64,000 bases of DNA, taken from contig NC_134515.1 of the NCBI RefSeq assembly GCF_027942865.1, positions 33,917,449 through 33,981,448 on the forward strand, written 5' to 3'. The notes under the pieces are model-generated. The model was given only the letters and a program-made list of their open reading frames with translations, did no database searches and was not told the DNA's origin. The translations under genes were made by a program, and so were the position numbers. The DNA comes from Odontesthes bonariensis (Eukaryota; Chordata; Actinopteri; Atheriniformes; Atherinopsidae). Shown in pieces: positions 18,253 through 52,639 of the stretch (position 1 is its first letter; each line of letters begins with the position of its first letter).

Positions 18253-22876
<4,624 letters not shown>

Positions 22877-25077: not shown

Positions 25078-25596
25078 TGCTTCTCTCTTGGGAGGAGTTC
25101 GGTGAGGCCATGGAGAACGACTTCCGGACAGCCTCGAAGAGATTCTGGTCTACCATCCAGCGGCTGGGGGGGAGCGGTGCACCGTCAACACCGTGTATGG
25201 TAAGGGCGGGGCTCTGCTGACCTCAACTAGGGAGATTGTGAGTCAGTGGGGGGAATACTTCGAGGACTTCCCCAATCCTACCGACACGCCTTCCGATGAG
25301 GAAGCAGAGTCAGGGAACTCAGATGTGGGGCCTCCCAGTTCTGGGGCTGAGGTTGCTGAGGTGGTCAAAAAGCTCCTCGGTGGCAAGGGTGGATGAGGAT
25401 CGCATGGACATCGGGGACAGTGCCTCTGGACTGGCAGATCGGGGGGGTGGTCCCCCTCTTTAAAAAAGGGAGGGGACACACCCAGAGGGTGTGTTCCAAC
25501 TACAAGGGGATCACACTCCTCAGTCTCCCTGGTAAGGTCTAATCGGGGGTACTGGAGAGGAGGATCCGTCGGATAGTCGAATCTCAGATTCAGGAG

Positions 25597-26580
25597 GTGC
25601 AGTGTGGTTTTATTCCTGACCGTGGAACAGTGGACCAGCTCTACACCCTCAGCAGGGTCCTGGAGGGTGCATGGGAGTTCACCCAACCGGTCTACATGTG
25701 TTTTGCGGACTTGGAGAGGGCGTTCGACCGTGTCCCTCAGGGAGTCCTGTGGGGGGTGCTCCAGGAGTATGGAGTGCCAGACCCCTTGATAGGGGCTGTT
25801 CGGTCTCTGTATGGTCTGTGCCAGAGTTTGGTCCGCATCGCCGGCAGTGAGTTGGACATGTTTCCTGTGAGGGTTGGACTCTGTCAGGGCTGCCCTTTGT
25901 CAACGATTCTGTTCATAATTTTTATGGACAGAATTTCTAGCCATAGCCAGGGCGTTGAGGGGCACCATTTTGGCGACCTCAGAATCAGGTCTCTGCTTTT
26001 TGCAGATGATGTGGTTCTGCTAGCGTCGTCAGGCCGTGACCTTCAGCTCTCACTGGAGCGGTTCGCAGCCGAATGTGAAGCGGCTGGGATGAGAATCAGC
26101 ACCTCCAAATCGGAGATCATGGTCCTTAGCCGGAAAAGGGTGGAATGCCCTCTCCGGGTCGGGAATGAGATCCTTCCCCAAGTGGGGGAGGTCAAGTATC
26201 TCGGGGTCTTGTTCAAAAGTGAGAGACGAATTGAGCGGGAGATTGACAGGCGGATTGGTGCAGCGTCCGCAGTGATGCGGGCACTGCACCAGCCCGTCGT
26301 AGTAAATAAGGAGCTGAGCCAGAAGGTGAAACTCTCGATTTACCGGTCAATCTATGTTCCTACCCTCACCTATGGTCACGAGCAGGGTAGTGACCGAAAG
26401 ATGACCGAAAAATGGTCACGGGTAGTGACCGAAAGAACGAGATCGCGAATACAAGCGGCCGGAATGGGCTTCCTTCGCAGGGTGTCTGGGCTCTCCCTTA
26501 GAGATGAGGTGAGAAGCTCGGTCATCCAGGAGGGACTCAGAATAGAACCGCTGCTCCTCGGCATCGAGAGGAGTCAGATC
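25597..26580 (+). pseudogene. Rex3 reverse transcriptase (fragment)
   Basis: The longest intact stretch of the Rex3 polyprotein. Reverse-transcriptase motifs appear in order: motif A with the first catalytic Asp (FADLERAFDRV), motif B (GLCQGCPLSTILF), motif C with the paired catalytic Asp (LLFADDVVLLA), then the thumb-side VKYLGVLF. It would copy element RNA at a nicked target. The apurinic-type endonuclease domain expected upstream is missing through 5' truncation, and the C-terminal part is split by nested insertions. A short duplicated stretch near 26380-26430, where GGTCACG...AGTGACCGAAAG occurs twice, also disturbs the frame locally. It cannot encode a complete protein. Confidence 0.88.
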
Positions 26581-26748
26581 AAAATCAAATCAAATCAAAT
26601 TTATTTGTATAGCACATTTCATGTACAAAACAGTTCAAAGTGCTTTACATAAAATAAAAGCATTGCAGCAGGGAGTGGAAGAAGCATTAAAAATACATAA
26701 AAGAATATAAAGAGAAACAAAGAAAATATTTTAAATTAATTTAAAACC
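26578..26748 (-). mobile_element. LINE 3' tail nested in Rex3
   Basis: Nearly identical to the first about 170 bp of the repeat at 8459-8815: an ATCAA-type repeat, TTTATTTGTATAGCACA, then the same internal sequence. Rex3 sequence is interrupted at CAGAT and resumes after another CAGAT (26758-26762), which suggests a short target duplication. The matching segment ends abruptly, so this is a 5'-truncated LINE copy. It is younger than the Rex3 insertion it sits in. Confidence 0.75.
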
Positions 26749-34669: not shown

Positions 34670-36000
34670 TTATAAAGCCTTATGGCTGTGGGAACAAAGG
34701 ACCTTCTGAACCTCTGTCCTGCAGCGCAGAGAGATGAGCCTCTCACTGCAGCTGCTCCTCTGTCCTGTCAGGATGCTGTGGAGAGGATGTTTATTATTCT
34801 CCATCACAGAATCTAACTTCCTCCTCATCCGTTTCTCCACCACAGCACCGAGAGGGTCCAGCCTTCTGCCTACAACAGAACCAGCCTTTTTCACAAGTTT
34901 GTCCAGGCGCCTACAGTTTCTGTCTGTAGTGCAACTCCCCCAGCAGACAGCAGCATAGAACAGTGCACTCTCAATGATAGTATGATAAAACATGCACATC
35001 ATATCACTGCAGACATTGAAGGGCCTGAGCCATCTCAGGAAAAAGAGACGGCTCTGGCCCCTCTTGTACACTGCGTCTATGTTGGCAGACCACTCCAGTT
35101 TATTATCCAGCACCACCCCCAGGTATTTGCAGGTCTGAACAGTCTCTATCTCCCCTCCATCAATGCAGACTGACTGGTATGGGGTTTTGGATCTCCTGAA
35201 GTCCACCACCAGCTCTTTGGTTTTGGTGGTGTTCAGGAGCAAACATTTATTTTTGTTCCAGTCAGTAAAGGCCTCCACAAGGTCCCTGTACTCCTTCTCC
35301 TGTCCACCGCGCACACATGCCACAACAGCCGTATCATCAGAATACTTCTGAATGTGACATGACTCTGAGTTGTACCTGAAGTCTGATGTGTACAGGGTGA
35401 AAAGAAAAGGAGCCAAAACAGTACCCTGCGGAGCCCCAGTACTGCATTCCAGTGTTCCAGAAACACATTTCCCCATCCTGACATACTGTGGTCTGGCAGA
35501 CAAATAGTCTATAATCCATGATGTCAGGGAGGGGGCCACACCCATACCGAGCAGCTTGTCTTTCAGAATGGGAGGCCGTATGGTGTTGAAGGCAGTGGAG
35601 AAGTCAAAGAACATGATTCTCACATATGAACCAGGCACATCCAGATAAGCATATGCCCGATGCAACGTGTACAGAATCGCGTCTTCCACTCCTATGTGTT
35701 TCTGGTAGGCAAACTGGAGGGGATCAAGAGCCTCAACAACCTGCAATCTCATGCGACGAACAAGAAGTCTCTCCAAGGTCTTCATGATATGAGATGTCGA
35801 AGCCACCGGTCTGTAGTCATTCAGCTCCACCGGTTGCCCTAATTTGGGCACTGGTATGAGACAAGAAGTTTTCCACAGTACTGGGACTTTTTCCATCTGA
35901 ATGCTCATATTGAAGAGCCTCTGAAGAGGGACCGCTAGTTGACCAGCACAGTCCCTCAGAAGCCTTGGACAGACTCCATCTGGGCCTGAAGCCCTCCCTG
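34670..36000 (-). pseudogene. LINE reverse transcriptase domain
   Basis: A long open frame (412 codons from its first Met) with reverse-transcriptase motifs in order: VLWKTSCLIPVPK and NDYRPVAS at the start of the fingers, motif A FDFSTAFNTI, motif B GAPQGTVLAPFLF, motif C KYSDDTAVV and CKYLGVVLDNKLEW. Motif C reads YSDD where the family normally has YADD; both catalytic Asp residues are kept. The frame continues upstream to the insert at about 36003, with GPDGVCPRLLRDCAGQ readable. It ends with the C-terminal region at 34670. The uninterrupted 1.2-kb frame suggests the element is not very old, although the whole element is broken elsewhere. Confidence 0.88.
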
Positions 36001-36002
36001 AC

Positions 36003-36338
36003 TTAAAGGGGAACTCCGGGGCATTTGAAGCGCATTTCCATTGCTAGAGGTTGTCAAATACAGATAGTAGGACACAGACAGGTGCAAATCTGCGCTCCCT
36101 GTGTGGCGATCGCGCTGTTCGCACAGCCTGTCATGCGAGGCTAATACGTGGTGGCTAGGGGCAAGCGCTAACCCTTCCACGTAAAACAACAACTTGCACA
36201 CTGCAGAAACGTCACACCACTTTATAAACCATCCGACAATAAAGTCACAAGCCTTACCATCAAAACCATATGCATGGTTCTCACATTACTGGCATGGGGA
36301 CGTTACAAAACAACTTTATAAACAGCATGTAACTCACC
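36003..36338. mobile_element. TTA-flanked insert in the LINE
   Basis: LINE coding sequence stops after EEVARAYN and resumes with RASGPDG, leaving about 335 bp of foreign DNA. It begins TTAAAGGGGAACTCCGG, resembling the ends of the other TTAA-type elements in this window. A TTA triplet borders each side, consistent with a TWA-type duplication, but the two termini are only weakly inverted. It is non-coding. It is called a MITE because it cleanly interrupts a reading frame. Confidence 0.55.
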
Positions 36339-39350: not shown

Positions 39351-40037
39351 CACTACCGTTTAGGGTCACCCAGAAAATTTTGTGTTTACCATTAAAACTT
39401 GATTATATTTATCAAATGAGTTGCAAAATGAATAGAAAATATAGTCAAGACATTGACAAGGTTAGAAATAATGATTTTTATTTGAAATATTAATTTTGTT
39501 CTTCAAACTATGCTTTCGTCAAAGAATATTCCATTTGCAGCAATTACAGCATTGCAAACCTTTGGCATTCTAGCTGTTAATTTGTTGAGGTAATCTGTAG
39601 AAATTTCACCCCATGCTTCCTGAAGCACCTCCCTCAAGTTTGATTGGCTTGATGGGCACTTTTTGTGTACCATACAGTCAAGCTGCTCCGACAACAGCTC
39701 AATGGGGTTGAGATCTGGTGACTGCGCTGGCCACTCTATTACAGACAGCATACCAACTGCCTGCTTCTTCCCTAAATAGTTCTTACATAATTTGGAGGTG
39801 TACTTTGGGTCATTGTCTTGTTGTAGGAGGAAATTGGCTCCAATCAAGCGCTGTTCACAGGGCATGGCATGGCGTTGCAAAATGGAGTGATAGCCTTCCT
39901 TATTTAAAATCCCTTTTATTTTGTACAAATCTCCCACTTTACCAGCACCAATGCAGCCCCAAACCATCACACACTTCCAGCATCTTTTCACCTGTTCTGC
40001 GTCTCACAAATGTTCTTCTGTGTGATCCAGACACGTC
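39351..40037 (-). mobile_element. Truncated Tc1-like (mariner superfamily) element
   Basis: The low-coordinate end is a terminal inverted repeat beginning CACTACCGTTTAGGGTCACC, preceded by the expected TA target (39349-39350). It retains the C-terminal half of a transposase on the minus strand. The other half is cut off at about 40037, where the simple-repeat 3' tail of an L2-like LINE (AAGGCAAGGCAGG) begins. The element therefore appears to be interrupted or truncated by that LINE; no matching 5' half was seen beyond the LINE. Confidence 0.85.
39503..39991 (-). pseudogene. Tc1-like transposase, C-terminal fragment
   Basis: A 162-codon open frame matching the catalytic core of Tc1-type cut-and-paste transposases: VMVWGCIGAGKVG, then LLQQDNDPKYTSK carrying the second catalytic Asp, then WPAQSPDLNPIE carrying the third acidic residue with the D34E spacing. 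The N-terminal paired-like DNA-binding domain and the first catalytic Asp are missing because the element is truncated. It cannot be active alone. Confidence 0.88.
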
Positions 40038-45207: not shown

Positions 45208-45213
45208 ATTAAG

Positions 45214-45560
45214 TACGGAAGCTTATTGCATTCACTTGATAAAATTTTTTTTTGGTTTGTTTTACTGAGTAATTATTTGTGTTTTTCTGAGTAATTTATT
45301 TTTTTGTCTGTTTTTCAGAATAATTATTTCTGTTTTTCTGACTAATTTATTTTTTTTCTGTTTTTTGGAATAATTATTTCTGTTTTTCTGAGTAATTTAT
45401 TTTTTGTCTGTTTTTTGGAATAATTATTTCTGTTTTTCAGAGTAATTTATTTTTGGCTGTTTTTTGGAATAATTATTTCTGTTTTTCTGAGTAATTTTTT
45501 TTCTTCTGTTTTTCGTGGTAATTTGTTTCCCCCTGTTTTTCGGAGTAATTTTTTTTTTTT
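45214..45560. repeat. Left long terminal inverted repeat with tandem repeats
   Basis: It starts TACGGAAGCTTATTGCAT, then carries about a dozen degenerate copies of a 25-28 bp unit of the form CTGTTTTTCTGAGTAATTAT, alternating two subtypes (TCTGAGTAATTT and TTGGAATAATTA). The arm mirrors 52019-52485. Such subterminal arrays may be transposase-binding sites; that role is inferred. Confidence 0.85.
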
Positions 45561-45569
45561 AAATATCGC

Positions 45570-45703
45570 GATACTTCCAACTCCCGCGAGAACATCCAAC
45601 CTGTAACAGACTCCCGTTCTCCCGTGGACCATGTCGTGAACTTATGGGGACTCCTGCCCGCGCATACCTTCCTTCAACTCTCTACCGTACCGTGTCAATT
45701 AAG
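45570..45703 (+). promoter_or_regulatory. Probable promoter/untranslated first exon of the SAM-HECT gene
   Basis: A GC-richer, CpG-containing stretch directly inside the left terminal repeat, containing TCGCGATA and CTCCCGCGAGA. It ends in a good splice donor (AATTAAG^GTAAGG, 45703/45704). The next acceptor (TTTTTTGCAG, 46474-46483) lies 8 bases before the ATG of the first coding exon. Together these suggest a 5' untranslated exon. Confidence 0.5.
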
Positions 45704-46491
45704 GTAAGGTATGTAATTAGTTACACACAGAGTTAGTTATGTTTACTATCCGTCTAATGTAAGCCTATCGCGTTAGGTTATGCTAATAGTAGCCTATACG
45801 CCAACACTATAGAGACGTAACATGAGAATAGTAACATTTAATCGTAACAGTTGCTTAACAGGGGGCACGTAAGCATGCAAACAAACAGAACGTTGCCAGT
45901 ATACTAGTCACTATATATTGACACCATTGATGCACCATGACGAGTGTTTTGAGTTTCTGGGGTTGCTGTGGTTTGCTTATGGGCTCCCTCTCCTTTGCTA
46001 TTTCCTTTGTAGGCTATTTAACATATGCATGCATATTATTTGTACAGGCCTGTGAATAAAATGATTTAAAATGTAAAACGTTTTTGCATCTGCTTACTGA
46101 CTATTTTATTGACTATTTGAGTAGTAGTAATAATAATAACTATTATACTAATACTAAAAGCCCACTCTGAGATGCCGAGTTTAGTCTTCTGTACTATTAG
46201 AGTAATATTATTGTTTATGAATAACCAGGGAAGGCTTTCATCACAAAATGACACTGGTCATTTGAGTAAGCACATTAAAATGCTTAATGACAGGTCGACT
46301 TTCAAATGACTATACAGATAGAGTATTGAACAAGACATGAAACATCCATTTTAAACAAAATTATTTTAAGCTTTCATATAATTCGACAATATCATGACAC
46401 AATTGGTCTTGACAGTTTTAAATGTGTGAATTGTTGATGCAAATATTTATATAGATCCTGCCTTTTTACTACATTTTTTGCAGTGCCAGCA

Positions 46492-49439
46492 ATGGCTTCA
46501 TCCTCAAGCCCCGGCCTCCCTCATGATGATGGTCTGTGGATATTTCTCCGCAACAGAGGTGTTCCTGAGGAGAGTATTCAGAAAATGCAACGGGATCATG
46601 TAAGTCACAGAAAATTTGTTCCTGCAGGGCTATATTCATTTTTAAAATGATTTCCCCAACTATATGTTTATATTTCACTGAACTTCAAATGATTTTAAAT
46701 GTACTTATATATTTTAGACCATCACATGTGGTTCCAGAGGTTCAAATATTTGCATTTGTCAAGCATCCCTTCCAACAATGCAGCCTGCATTGAGAGACAT
46801 CACTGTTACACAAATATACAAATAAATATACAAACTATTCACTGCTTTATATTTTGCTTTGATATGATATGTTTTAAAATGCTGTTATTTGAGATTTTCA
46901 GTGTCAAATATAAGTCAAGTATTCTGTGCCATCAAAGTAAGACTTGATTCTTAACATTTTTTGCCAGTATGGTAATGTGCAACCAATTAATAAAATTGGA
47001 CAACTCAGATGCAATGTTTACATCTTGATATTATAGATGATGTACATGGTATAAGAACAGTTAGAACAACACTTTCAATATATATCATGCTAAACTAATA
47101 CATTGTAACATTTATAGTATTTAATTATTTGTGTCATAATATGATAGTAAGTATATGGAATAGAAAGGATAATTAATCCCATCTGACTGCATTTGAAAAC
47201 TTATGCATGACTTTAAACTAAAACAATAGGTGAACAGGATTAAGTACCCTTTCAAGTTACTGTTGATATATCATTAACATAGCAGAAAGAATAAATGTCT
47301 AGTGTTTATATCAGCACACTACATTATTGCCAGCTTCACCGTCTCATACTGTCCATTGTGTTATCATCTGCATTAGGCATTTATAATTGGTTGTCCTGGA
47401 ATTTAGCACAGAAGTAAATAGTCTTGGAGATAATGTAGTTTAAGCTGTGTCATGTCTAATGTATACTTTTTGTTTTTATTGCAGATTGACAGCTCGATAA
47501 TTGGAGAAATAGATGATGCAACCATGGCCTCTTACATTCCAGCCTATGGTGACAGGATTGCCACAAGGCGTTTCTGTATGGAAAAACAGAGAAGAGGTGG
47601 AGATGATACCACAAGACTGTCCTTATTCAAAAAACTTTAAAAAAAAATGGGCACAATGAGCAACAAAGAAGTTCAAGGTTTTGATGGGGAGAATACAGTG
47701 CATCCAACAAACATACGTCTAAAAAGTAATAAGAGAGCCTGGAAGACAACCAGAAAAATAAAACTAGCGTGGATACATGACAGCAGACAAGTCAGAAAAC
47801 GCAGTGGTGGAGGAACCAGAGTTCTTGACATGAACAAGAATGCCACGAAAACTGAGATTCTGTCACAAGCTAAGAAACTATTTTTCCCTAATGAAAAGTC
47901 AACAATGGGAAAGTGGGAAGAGTTCAGTCATGATATAGTTGACTTTCAGGAAGCACAACTTGATGAGGATGTTAGTGTGGGAGACTACTACGAGAAACAC
48001 AAATTGGGTTTGTTAAGATTTTATTTGTTCACAAAGACCCTGACCAGTGCAGATGACCCAGAGGAAGGAGCTGACATACAGACAGATGAGCAACATGAAA
48101 ACACAGCAGAATCTGGACAAGAGACGCACACAATGGAAGGGGAACAGCTGACACAGAAAAGACATAACAGTGAAAATCAAATGCACACAGTCGAAGATGA
48201 TGAGCTAAGCACTGCCACAATGTCAGCTGTTGTCTCTACTGCAGCTGTTCAGATTATTGATCTTACATCTTTGTGTAATACATCAGAGGTCATTTTTGGT
48301 CCTTTGACAGGTGGGCCGTTTTTAGGTGATCTTGATGATACACTCATACATGAGCCAATCCTTGCAATAGAAGATGAACAAATAAACACCCCCACCTACA
48401 CCTCAACTCCTATTGATACTGAGACAGCTTCTGCTAGACCACCAAGTCCTGCCAATGAACTTTTGCATGTGACTGTGAGACTTCACAGAGTGACTCTCTT
48501 AGATGAACTGATTGCCCAATTCAAGGATGAAGCAATGATGACTTACTCTGTGAAATACAGCTTCATTGATGAAATGGGGGCAGATGCTGATGGTGTATCC
48601 AGGGATGTTTACGCTGCCTTCTGGACAGAATTCCTAGACTGTGCAGCAGAAGGTGCAGATGTGAGGGTGCCATCACTCTCCCCAAAATGGCAAGAGGAGG
48701 AATGGAAGTCTGTTGGCAGGATATTGGCCAAGGGACTGAAGGACCATGGGTATTTTCCATTTCGGCTGGCTCAAGCCTTTACTGCAGCTGTCACATTTGG
48801 TGAACACTCTGTTTCACCTGATTTACTCTTTGACTCCCTGATGTTGTATCTTAGTCAGTCTGAGCGTGATCTCTTGTCCACTGCTTTGCAAGAGGCTGTT
48901 GTCGGCGATGATGAGGAAGAGCTCCTTGATCTTATGGATCGCATGGGAGTAAGAACAGTACCAACACAAGATAACTTGAGAGCTGTCCTTGTCCAGGTCG
49001 CCCACAAGCAAATGATCCAGCATCCAGCAATTAAAGAGGTTGCAGGACCAATACTCAGGAAGTTTTTCCCCAGTGTACAGGATATGAAGAAGCTGTATGA
49101 GGACATTAAACCAACAACACGAAAGGTGATAAAGATGATAACAGCTTCTCCAGCTACTTCAGCAGAGAACCAAAGTTTGCAATTTTTACATCAGTACATA
49201 AGGGGATTGGATGAAATAGGTTCCGGAAGCTGATGAGATTTCTGACTGGGTCTGATGTCATCTGTGTAAAAGAAATTCAAGTCACATTCACCTCTTTGGA
49301 AGGGCTGGCGCGGCGGCCAGTTGCCCATACTTGTGGCCCAACTGTGGAGCTGCCATCAACTTACAACAGCTATCCTGAGCTTCGAGCTGAAATGGAGGCT
49401 ATACTGTCCAGCAACATTTATGCAATGGACATTGCATAA
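46492..49439 (+). pseudogene. SAM-like/HECT-domain ubiquitin-ligase-like protein (transposon cargo)
   Basis: The first coding exon 46492-46599 (DGLWIFLRNRGVPEESIQKM) splices in phase (H^GTAAGT...GCAG^ID) to an exon from 47485; together they form a SAM-like domain ending in YIPAYGDRIATRRF. The same exon continues with a basic region (KRAWKTTRKIKLAWIHDSR), a conserved block (KNATKTEILSQAKKLFFP to LGLLRFYLFTKT), an acidic linker, then a HECT-like region from about 48469 (YSFIDEMGADADGVSRDVYA) to the C-lobe at 49234-49439. The C-lobe keeps RRPVAHTCGPTVELP, with the likely catalytic Cys codon at 49332-49334. HECT enzymes pass ubiquitin through such a Cys. Two lesions break it: an in-frame TAA at 47638-47640 and a one-base frameshift near 49215-49225. 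Similar G2E3-like proteins are multicopy in fish. AATAAA lies at 50073. Confidence 0.8.
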
Positions 49440-50399
49440 GAGCGGCTAAGTGACTTATGAACACATACACATTTTTCTCTTCTCCATCAGTGGCAGCGAT
49501 GTAGGTTTAGACTGTGTGAATGTGGGATAGATAATGTAAGGAGAAAATGTGATTAGCTCAGGTGCTGTGTGATTAGTGCAAAATTATTTTTATTACAGTT
49601 CATGATGTTGGTTTTATTATATCAAGGAACAATAACTTACACAGACTTACTGAGACATTTTTTGTTATGAGAGCTTCTATAAAGAGAATATGTGACTACC
49701 TCAGGGGCTGAATTTACTTTGATTTAAGACACTTTTGTTATCAGTCAAGGATGAAAATGTTTGAACATTAGATATACTTTTGTTATGTTTTCACTGTTAA
49801 ATCATAATAGAATTTCAACCTCTACCTCATGTCAGATGTTAATACTGACAGTGTTTGTGAATCTACTTGTAGCAAGTTGAGGTGTGTTTTTTTACACTTG
49901 TTTTGTACAACTGTCTTCATACAGATTGTGTCTTGGGTCATGTAGTTCAGGAGTCCTGCTCTGTGAGACCACAATCTTAAAATTGGACATGTTCCTTTTG
50001 TTATGGGGTGCTTGTATTGTGAAATGTTGAAGTTAACAACTGTTTGTAAACTCAAGGAAAGATGCATGCCCTAATAAAAGATAATCATATGCTTCATTTG
50101 CTGAAAGTTTAATGACAACTGCATTTCAACATAAATTTATAGAGTGACATTTCATTCAAATACATAAGAATAGTTAATCTGTTTATTTGTTTGAGAGATG
50201 ACATGATAATCCCCAACTAATTTTAGATACATACATATTCACCAAATTTTGTTACATGTAATTGTTTGGCTGCAAATGACATACAGTAAATTAATGAGAG
50301 AAACAGAAATGTGCAATGTATGGTCCATAAGAATTTCTACCCTCATGTGAAGGCTTAGATTCAGTCATTTGATCCAGTAGGTCCAGCAGGATGTGATCA
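49440..50399. other. Intergenic DNA between the convergent transposon genes
   Basis: AT-rich 3' flank of the SAM-HECT gene with AATAAA at 50073-50078. No additional coding sequence. The transposase gene ends at 50400 from the opposite side. Confidence 0.55.
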
Positions 50400-51965
50400 T
50401 TAAATTTGAGCTCTTATGTAAACACGTAAGAACATGTAAAGCTCAATGGCTTCCTCTGGAGAGGTGGATGGATGAAGACTGTTTTCTGCCATGGCAAGGC
50501 AGCAAATATCAAACACTGCATCATCACAGGGATACGGTCCTCTCTGAAGGCATTCCTCTCTGCAGGCGTCTATCTTTTGCTGGGATACCTCTTTCAGGTA
50601 CTCTCTGGCACCAAAAAGTTGAGGTAGGGTGTACATCATCACTGGGCGCCCACCTGGAGACACAGCATTCCTGCATGGGCGAATCCTGTGAGTGTTCCAG
50701 AGGTGAACAACCTCCTGCAGTTCTCTCTAAATATAAGTAAATAAAAATAGACAGTAAGAAAATCAGTTCACACATTTGCTATACCAACTGCAGTAAATAT
50801 TATATTGCATTAAACTAGCCAGTAATGTAATTCAAATCAGCTCCAACTTAAACATCTGCAGTTGTAGTAAACTGTCTCATGCAATTATCTTTTTTTTCAT
50901 ACTTTGAATATATACTGCTGATAATACTGTCCTTTGTTTTGAATGTAACCTACATGGAGTGAGCACTTCACTTAATATCAGTAGGCCTATGATATTAGTA
51001 CCACACTAAAATAACCCACTACACGGGGCAGTACTACTGCTTTTGGAGAAGTAAAACATCTGAATTCTTGAACCACTAATCAGGTGTCACAAGAAACAAC
51101 ATAAATGTATTCCAGTTCTTACCTCTATTATTTCAAGACATGTGAACTGAATGAGACTTTTGTCCAGAAAGTCACCAGAAAAGGAGTCTGAGTCTTTTAG
51201 ATCTTGGAACAGGTTCATCCAGAACTGTGCGTGTTGCCGCCTTAAAAAGCCCCACCAGTTCTCTATTCTTTGGTTGTGATTGCTCGATCCATACAGATAA
51301 CATCTGTGCGAAAAGTTGTCCAGATGATCGTGCCTCAAGAACATCTGCATTTGTTCAACGTAACAGTTCTCGGTTCCGAGGTCCGAACGAATTCGGGCAG
51401 CAGTTCCATTCCTTGATGACACCTCATCAATGAAGTAGTGCGCGATTATCTTGGGATCACTGTTTGTAGAGTAAGCATGCAGCCAAATCACCATTCGTGA
51501 AAATCCATCTATTGCGCCATTGATGCAGATCCCGTACGGTTTGAGTTTATCATAGGAGTCTACATGCCACAAAAAGTTTGGGCCTGGATTCTGGTACATA
51601 CGCCTCCGAAGGCGATTCCGGCGCCTCAGCTCCACACCATGCGGATCCAATATTTTCAGCAGTCTCCTGATCGTCTCTTGAGTCACCACGTAGCCAGCCT
51701 GAATGCATTTCAAATGCATCATCCTGTATCCATGGAGCATACTGTATCTGTCCAACTGATCCTGGAGAAAAACTGCTATGTCTAGCAGATCTGAATGGGC
51801 TTTCCTTCTGAACAGCCGCAAAGTACTCAGGTGCCTGCGTAGAGTCGACAAACTAATGATAATACCATCTATATGACTTAAAGACAGGACTATCTCCCAG
51901 TGTCTTAAACCCAGATCAAAGTAAAACTTGATTAAACTGAACAAGTCGGTCATGTTTGTAACCAT
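50400..51965 (-). CDS. IS3EU-like DDE integrase/transposase (two exons, 389 aa)
   Basis: Catalyses excision and insertion of the surrounding element. Exon 1 is 51965-51123 (281 codons), exon 2 is 50726-50400 (108 codons plus stop); the intron has GT-AG borders (GAG^GTAAGA, TTTAG^AGAG) and both junctions are in phase 0. Residues 1-60 form a helix-turn-helix-like region (LSTLRRHLSTLRLFRRK); 60-110 resemble the IS3 HTH_21 segment (YRMMHLKC, VTQETIRRLL). The integrase core has catalytic residues D136 (WHVDSYDK), D195 (IRSDLGTEN) and E235 (NQRIENWWGF). The C-terminus (WNTHRIRPCRN, then PGGRPVMMYTLP) matches the tail expected in this family. No stop or frameshift interrupts it, unlike the neighbouring cargo gene. 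A Ginger-type element is less likely, because no HHCC zinc finger or chromodomain is seen. Confidence 0.85.
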
Positions 51966-52018
51966 GAAGTCGAGCTCTCAATGAATGAATGGATCTTCAA
52001 ATGCTCTGTAAACTCAGG

Positions 52019-52485
52019 AAAAAAATTAGTCCGAAAAACAGAAAAAAAAAAATTATTCAGAAAATCAGGAAAAAATTTACTCAGAAAAACAGAAAAAGAA
52101 AATTACTCAGAAAAACAGAAAAAATTATTCCAAAAAACAGACAAAAAAAATTACCCCGAAAAACAGGGGGAAAAAAATTACCACGAAAAACAGAAGAAAA
52201 AAAATTACTCTGAAAAACAGAAATAATTATTCCAAAAAACAGCCAAAAATAAATTACTCTGAAAAACAGAAATAATTATTCCAAAAAACAGACAAAAAAT
52301 AAATTACTCAGAAAAACAGAAATAATTATTCCAAAAAACAGAAAAAAAATTAATTAGTCAGAAAAACAGAAATAATTATTCTGAAAAACAGACAAAAAAA
52401 GAAATTACTCAGAAAAACACAAATAATTACTCAGTAAAACAAACCAAAAAAAAAATGTATCAAGTAAATGCAATAAGCTTCCGTA
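52019..52485. repeat. Right long terminal inverted repeat with tandem repeats
   Basis: Reverse-complement partner of 45214-45560: tandem units of the form AATTACTCAGAAAAACAGAA and AATAATTATTCCAAAAAACA, ending ATGCAATAAGCTTCCGTA. It is somewhat longer than the left arm because it has more repeat units, so the arrays have changed in copy number since they formed. Confidence 0.85.
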
Positions 52486-52639
52486 ATTAAGAACCCACCT
52501 CGTTAACAAAAGCTGAGTATTAGAATAATCTCTGTGAAATATATATATAAAAAAAATACTTTTTTTGTAGGGCTGATTCACTTAGGTGTGTGGATGGCGG
52601 GTCATAAAGTAGATAGGTGACATCGTCATTTCTCCATTT

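Follow-up and report, generated by a model that had tools for sequence, protein, structure and literature searches.

IS3EU transposons of Odontesthes bonariensis that carry a HECT E3-like gene, probably as an old and selected second gene

The window considered here is the whole analysed stretch of 64,000 nucleotides from contig NC_134515.1 of the fish Odontesthes bonariensis, and it contains a DNA transposon with two genes reading towards each other, viz. one for an integrase-like DDE transposase and one for a protein resembling HECT-type ubiquitin ligases. The features of this element are listed in Table 1. A first-pass annotation of the same DNA had described a 7.27-kb unit flanked by exact ATTAAG duplications, and the unit has precisely these limits. 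The annotation had also reported matching ends. The termini, TACGGAAGC and GCTTCCGTA, do match, and the 9-mer is present twice in the window and nowhere else in it, but the repeat is longer than 9 bp and extends over terminal inverted repeats (TIRs) of 343 bp.

Table 1. Coordinates of the transposon and its parts within the window.
Feature	Position	Strand	Basis
Left target-site duplication, ATTAAG	45208..45213		Exact match to 52486-52491
IS3EU-type DNA transposon, labelled family A	45214..52485 (7,272 bp)		Ends, TIRs, target-site duplication, both genes
Left TIR, 343 bp, tandem array of ~50-bp units	45214..45556	+	97.7% identity to right TIR; Tandem Repeats Finder
First coding exon of the HECT-like gene, 36 codons long, belonging to the earlier "SAM-like" region	46492..46599	+	ATG and GT donor; exon and splice position common to families B and E
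Second coding exon of the HECT-like gene: remainder of N-terminal part, middle region, N-lobe, C-lobe with Cys in AHTCG	47485..49439	+	HECT match of relative L010; match of C-lobe piece
Transposase exon 2	50400..50726	-	GT-AG junction, frame stays open; matching second exon in relatives
Transposase exon 1, N-terminal part and DDE core	51123..51965	-	PF24764 rva_4, E 2.6e-30; D136, D195, E235
Right TIR, 343 bp, tandem array of ~50-bp units	52143..52485	-	97.7% identity to left TIR; Tandem Repeats Finder
Right target-site duplication, ATTAAG	52486..52491		Exact match to 45208-45213

The IS3EU (or GingerRoot) superfamily of Repbase is described as having TA..TA ends, usually 6-bp target-site duplications (TSDs), and an integrase-like DDE transposase related to those of the prokaryotic IS3 and IS481 elements (PMC10045372). 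The window element has TA..TA termini, which also fit the more specific form TAYGG..CCRTA, its TSD is 6 bp long, and its transposase matches the Pfam family rva_4, "Integrase core domain". Based on its ends, the length of its duplication and the kind of its transposase, it is assigned to IS3EU, and the label "IS3-like" used in the first-pass annotation was thus a fair name for the superfamily. Several families of related elements have family-specific tandem repeats within their end regions or next to them (the TIRs of the window element, positions 7100-8014 in L024, and positions 264-854 and 5602-6173 in L028), and such repeats are possibly repeated binding sites for the transposase.

The transposase gene was annotated earlier as an open frame of two exons with the residues D136, D195 and E235, and all of this holds for the window copy, where a GT-AG intron of 396 bp separates two exons lacking any stop. 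The D/D/E residues are also intact in 21 of the 23 transposase copies that were mapped; one of the other two has G in place of the second D, and one is incomplete. For the transposase of the relative L012, the best NCBIfam match is to IS481 (E 1.6e-8), which lies far below the cut-off of that model. A sequence search of the PDB with the window transposase gave no significant match, and an AlphaFold prediction for its exon 1, made without relatives, was unusable, with a predicted local distance difference test score (pLDDT) of 34.

The second gene had been described as a spliced, convergent gene with SAM-like and HECT-type parts that retains the C-lobe Cys. The splicing layout, the convergence with the transposase gene and the Cys are all present in the window element, whereas the SAM part is without profile support and the copy itself is broken. 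No SAM domain was matched in Pfam by three spliced N-termini (a half-length piece matched SAM_3 at E 0.14, below the cut-off), and a PDB profile search with the N-terminal part gave three weak matches, none of them to a SAM protein. The N-terminal exons are nevertheless conserved among families, although no known domain is assigned to them. The assignment of the second exon to HECT comes from the relative L010, which is 98% identical and matches Pfam PF00632 at E 1.7e-7; the C-lobe piece of the window copy itself matches Pfam HECT at E 3.7e-4, which is below the cut-off, and its N-lobe piece has no Pfam match. Searches of the PDB found no significant match for the N-lobe piece or for a HECT profile, and for the C-lobe piece they found HUWE1 only at E 0.48, ranked behind an unrelated protein. 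The N-lobe piece also gave an unusable AlphaFold prediction in a run without relatives (pLDDT 39). The window element is a copy in which the transposase frame is open and the HECT gene is already decaying.

All counts given below refer to the genome from which the window comes (945 Mb in 187 contigs). The terminal 17-mer of the element has 9 exact sites in it, and 106 sites match the terminal 24-mer with no more than 2 mismatches; the reversed control had none in either case. Of 28 loci that were examined for their ends, 11 showed an exact 6-bp TSD at matching ends, involving 10 different hexamers; among the 17 loci without one are some for which the fetched stretch may stop inside the element. 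The hexamer pair of L017, whose right end is non-canonical, was left out of this count; L028 lacks a target duplication, although its ends match, with a repeat of 591 bp. The copies at C21:24693744 and C21:24730147 have their TSD and flanks in common, and they represent one duplicated insertion. Two further copies of family A retain both ends, viz. one on C19 (7386 bp, TSD GCTTTG), in which the frame of the transposase is interrupted near residue 175, and one on C18 (9898 bp, TSD GTTGAA), in which transposase exon 1 is open. Short copies with internal deletions (1025 bp with TSD GGAAAC, and 730 bp with TSD AAATGC) are also present, and the ends of relatives include TACGGAAGCG, TACGATGG, TATGGAAGC and TACGGAGCC.

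The question of whether the two genes travel together was addressed across the entire genome. Using tblastn, 77 matches were found for the HECT piece and 141 for transposase exon 1, and a Pfam search gave 152 rva_4 and 136 HECT matches. These were merged (using 129 of the 141 transposase tblastn rows, 150 of the 152 rva_4 rows and all HECT rows) into 209 transposase loci and 127 HECT loci, the latter presumably inclusive of ordinary host HECT genes. A transposase locus lies within 12 kb at 53 of the 127 HECT loci, as compared to a mean of 0.79 when loci were placed uniformly and 1.16 when they were shifted locally by 50-500 kb, with a maximum of 5 in each control. Fifty of these pairs are convergent, none is divergent, and the remaining 3, all more than 8 kb apart, are on the same strand. 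The convergent pairs are spread over 21 contigs, and the identity of the paired relatives to the window proteins ranges from 98% down to about 30% of amino acids; however, since the convergent pairs include duplicates, the number of independent pairs or families is smaller than 50. Among transposase matches covering at least 200 of the 281 residues (46 in number), a convergent HECT locus is present within 12 kb in 31, or in 32 if L039 is counted. The copies sharing both genes, for which the first-pass annotation had proposed a genome search, thus exist, several with proven ends and 6-bp TSDs around them, and its claim that the HECT gene is mobile is supported by the recurrence of this gene beside the same kind of transposase in many such elements. 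Its further suggestion, that transposons could account for the spread of HECT genes in fish, gains support as far as this genome is concerned, where a sizeable share of the HECT loci is attributable to such transposons: 50 of the 127 are convergent with a transposase, and these include loci of a second HECT type. Chance capture of a host gene at the window locus fails as an explanation.

Elements whose HECT gene consists of a conserved N-terminal part followed by a middle region and the HECT domain were sorted into families, labelled here A to G. The small first HECT exon was found in families A, B and E, and with a loose pattern it was not found in the loci of C and D. All four of the scanned relatives with open HECT frames, viz. 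L010, L012, L024 and L027, pass the Pfam cut-off for HECT (E 3.7e-8 to 6.1e-6); outside this frame the gene is disrupted in L010 and L012, with a stop inside the first exon of L010, and no first exon was located in L024 or L027. At all 20 loci of this first HECT type where the stretch was readable, near-copies included, the C-lobe Cys is retained. A second HECT type, which we take to be G2E3-like, occurs in L035, L036, L037 and L039, where it consists of several separate stretches with C-lobe matches above the cut-off; the Cys is found in all 4 fetched loci of this type that have a C-lobe. In the transposase tree, the two HECT types lie on opposite sides with one change between them, a placement with weak support (78/70). 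A stop that separates the N-terminal part from the HECT frame in family A was also considered as a conserved recoding signal, and this was rejected, as families B to F read through this region without a stop. At the site of this stop L010 also has one A fewer in a run of A; the stop is absent from the other families that were read.

Comparing the HECT domain of family A with that of families B or E gave ratios of non-synonymous to synonymous change (dN/dS) of 0.118-0.162 (24 pairs), which are rough estimates, as the dS values of 2.0-2.6 are near saturation. These values indicate that the HECT gene has changed under constraint between families. The first-pass annotation had looked for dN/dS below 1 among copies, and this does not hold within families, where the ratio ranges from 0.44 to 2.06 (15 pairs) and looks neutral, as is expected for copies that decay after insertion. 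The comparison of L030 with L034 was dropped, these loci being 95-96% identical in DNA along the element. The non-synonymous difference between families is greater for HECT than for the transposase (e.g. 0.31 versus 0.17 for A-E). Further, the transposase and HECT trees agree at the starred branches, with (A,B,E) separated from (C,G,(D,F)), although the HECT tree carries a long-branch warning.

Based on these results, the reading that we favour, and regard as probable, is that these are IS3EU transposons with an old, selected second gene encoding a HECT E3-like protein that acts in trans. The term "mobile cargo" used in the first-pass annotation is apt in that the gene is mobile; however, it is better understood as a long-standing second gene of a transposon lineage than as something captured. 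In terms of mechanism, the transposase would bind the long, repeat-bearing TIRs and move the element by cut and paste, and transcription of both genes would start close to the TIRs and run inwards. The HECT protein would serve as an E3, forming a ubiquitin thioester on its conserved C-lobe Cys, and as an accessory factor supplied in trans it would most likely modify host proteins that limit transposition, such as silencing or repair factors. An action in trans is proposed because elements without this gene have still moved.

A number of observations weigh against this reading. All of the evidence on copies comes from a single genome, and none of the elements had both genes demonstrably intact with all exons accounted for. 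The HECT gene of the window copy is disrupted by an in-frame TAA (47638-47640) and by a frameshift near 49215-49233, due to which the C-lobe and the N-lobe lie in different frames; the C-lobe Cys is still present despite the broken frame, but the residue that follows it is G, where the HECT domain of HUWE1 in the PDB has F. In family A, all three full-size copies carry the stop that separates the N-terminal part from the HECT frame, which means that what has spread in this family is an altered HECT gene. The 16 HECT pairs between B and E are saturated in dS, which adds to the roughness of the between-family ratios noted above. Within A, B and E the two trees possibly conflict, as the transposase tree joins A with E (82/85; 96/95 in a smaller tree), unlike the HECT tree, which joins A with B (86/87, not starred). 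Further, 156 or more of the 209 loci with a transposase match, many of these matches being short, are without a HECT locus within 12 kb, and in the scan no HECT match was seen near 15 of the 46 long transposase matches. Copies carrying only the transposase, which the first-pass annotation had named as a sign of chance capture, thus do occur. Of the 15 loci, five (L031, L032, L038, L039 and L040) were opened: L031 (1205 bp, TSD CATCTC) and L032 (4184 bp, TSD GGGAAT, in which the N-terminal part of the gene is kept and the HECT domain lost) are deletion copies of HECT-bearing families; L040 (2275 bp, TSD CATAGG) and L038 are transposase-only relatives of the HECT-bearing family D, with an inferred direction of change; and L039 has a HECT gene that the scan had overlooked. 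Since HECT-free copies have transposed, the HECT gene is dispensable in cis, though its supply in trans is conceivable.

The main rival to a trans-acting factor directed at host defences is a direct role in transposition or repair, in which the HECT protein would be a cofactor in the narrow sense that ubiquitinates the transposase, the transposition complex or the repair proteins at excision sites, so as to regulate the turnover of the transposase or to resolve intermediates. The repeated pairing and the largely matching trees of the two genes would fit such a role, and an involvement of the ubiquitin and SUMO pathways in transposition was suggested from the OTU and Ulp1 domains of Ginger1 (PMC2836005). 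However, the movement of HECT-free elements such as L040 and L032 speaks against it, unless the protein was supplied in trans, and we consider this role unlikely, if the most serious of the alternatives. It is still less likely that the HECT fold has been kept for binding, as a scaffold or as a decoy of host ligases, and not for catalysis. The divergent N-lobe, for which neither the window piece in Pfam nor the profile in the PDB finds a match, is consistent with this, as is the situation in family A, where the continuous link to the N-terminal part is lost but the HECT frame of L010 is still open; however, the catalytic Cys is retained in all loci that were read, even in broken copies.

If instead the gene were merely functionless passenger DNA captured from the host, then the broken state of the window copy and of many others, the range of within-family dN/dS and the movement of HECT-less copies would all be readily understood. 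This explanation does not account for the constraint seen between families, the Cys retained in every readable locus of the first type, or the same convergent layout at 50 loci with two HECT types, and it appears quite improbable. Lastly, the pairing could be artefactual, produced by segmental duplication or by regions rich in transposons and not by shared mobility, and duplicated loci of this kind do exist, viz. the two C21 copies and the pair L025 and L026 (99.94% identical over 9.9 kb). However, with pairs on 21 contigs, identities that go down to about 30%, 53 pairs against a mean of 1.16 under local shifts, and 10 different TSD hexamers, this explanation is refuted for the families as a whole and retains hardly any probability. 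A broader form of the favoured reading can also be put forward, more tentatively and with somewhat less than an even chance of being correct. According to it, what sets a whole branch of animal IS3EU apart is a HECT ligase encoded by the transposons themselves, in two or more deeply separated types, which is without exception convergent with the transposase gene in autonomous elements, serves as an enzyme of counter-defence or host manipulation, and through its spread accounts for the orphan HECT (G2E3-like) genes that are annotated in many copies in fish.

Some other observations were made in the course of this work. The 9.9-kb stretches of L025 (C12:13355500-13365400) and L026 (C29:6787400-6797300) are on different contigs, and each holds a family D element in which transposase exon 2 is present a second time in inverted orientation; their near-identity indicates a very recent copy or duplication. 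On C3, a region of 2.7 Mb (33183647-35890742) contains 28 of the 150 listed rva_4 matches, with near-equal scores, in both orientations and many of them about 50 kb apart, which indicates an amplified array containing an IS3EU-like transposase. Elsewhere in the window, an exon at 21414-22037 (+) encodes a nuclear-receptor ligand-binding domain (Pfam Hormone_recep, E 1.2e-20), presumably similar to that of HNF4; fragments of reverse transcriptase resembling those of long interspersed nuclear elements are found at 25543-26649 (+) and 34673-36043 (-) (RVT_1, E 9.5e-28 and 1.2e-22); and a fragment of a Tc1-like DDE_3 transposase lies at 39506-40003 (-), with an E value of 2.6e-4 that is below the cut-off.

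HECT E3 ligases, including the G2E3-like proteins, have a HECT domain with a C-lobe Cys, and the gene of the window type is similar to them in both respects. It differs in being carried by a transposon and in having an N-terminal part without a known-domain match, and its product is a putative ligase. With the IS3EU elements described earlier, the window element shares its ends, the length of its TSD and the kind of its transposase, but the lineage described here has a convergent HECT gene, whereas neither HECT nor ubiquitin appears in the main text of PMC10045372. The nearest parallel is provided by the TET+ IS3EU elements of fungi, for which TAYGG..CCRTA ends, 6-bp TSDs and TIRs of more than 30 bp are reported, together with accessory genes for a TET/JBP dioxygenase and an alpha-kinase, the latter opposite in orientation to the transposase (PMC12730594). 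The ends, the TSDs, the long TIRs and a second enzyme gene opposite to the transposase are thus common to both; however, the enzymes in fungi are TET/JBP and alpha-kinase instead of HECT, and the main text of that paper mentions neither HECT nor ubiquitin. In Ginger1, an integrase-like transposon is likewise combined with an enzyme of the ubiquitin/SUMO pathway, in the form of an OTU or Ulp1 protease domain at the C-terminus of the transposase, from which a role of ubiquitin or SUMO in transposition was proposed in 2010; but this protease domain removes the modifier and is part of the transposase instead of being a ligase encoded by a gene of its own, and HECT is absent from the main text (PMC2836005).

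A pairing of IS3EU with HECT was not found in the open-licence papers of PubMed Central (PMC); it may be known from Repbase entries or subscription papers, which were outside this search. In the same collection, the combination of HECT domain, DNA transposon and transposase gave a sole match, a paper on bacterial death domains, and in searches with wider terms no title or beginning of an abstract among the matches listed pairs a HECT gene with a transposon. Exact peptide patterns of both proteins, searched in viral contigs, gave no confirmed relative. A repeated and constrained transposon-borne HECT gene, in a known superfamily and not found in the literature searched, is out of the ordinary. 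The known accessories of transposons are domains that remove ubiquitin or SUMO and, in fungi, enzymes that demethylate DNA; an enzyme that adds ubiquitin, encoded by a regular second gene, would represent a new class of transposon accessory. The system described here gives a direct way to test the suggestion of 2010 that the ubiquitin pathway serves transposition. Further, many of the HECT "genes" annotated in genomes may be genes of transposons.

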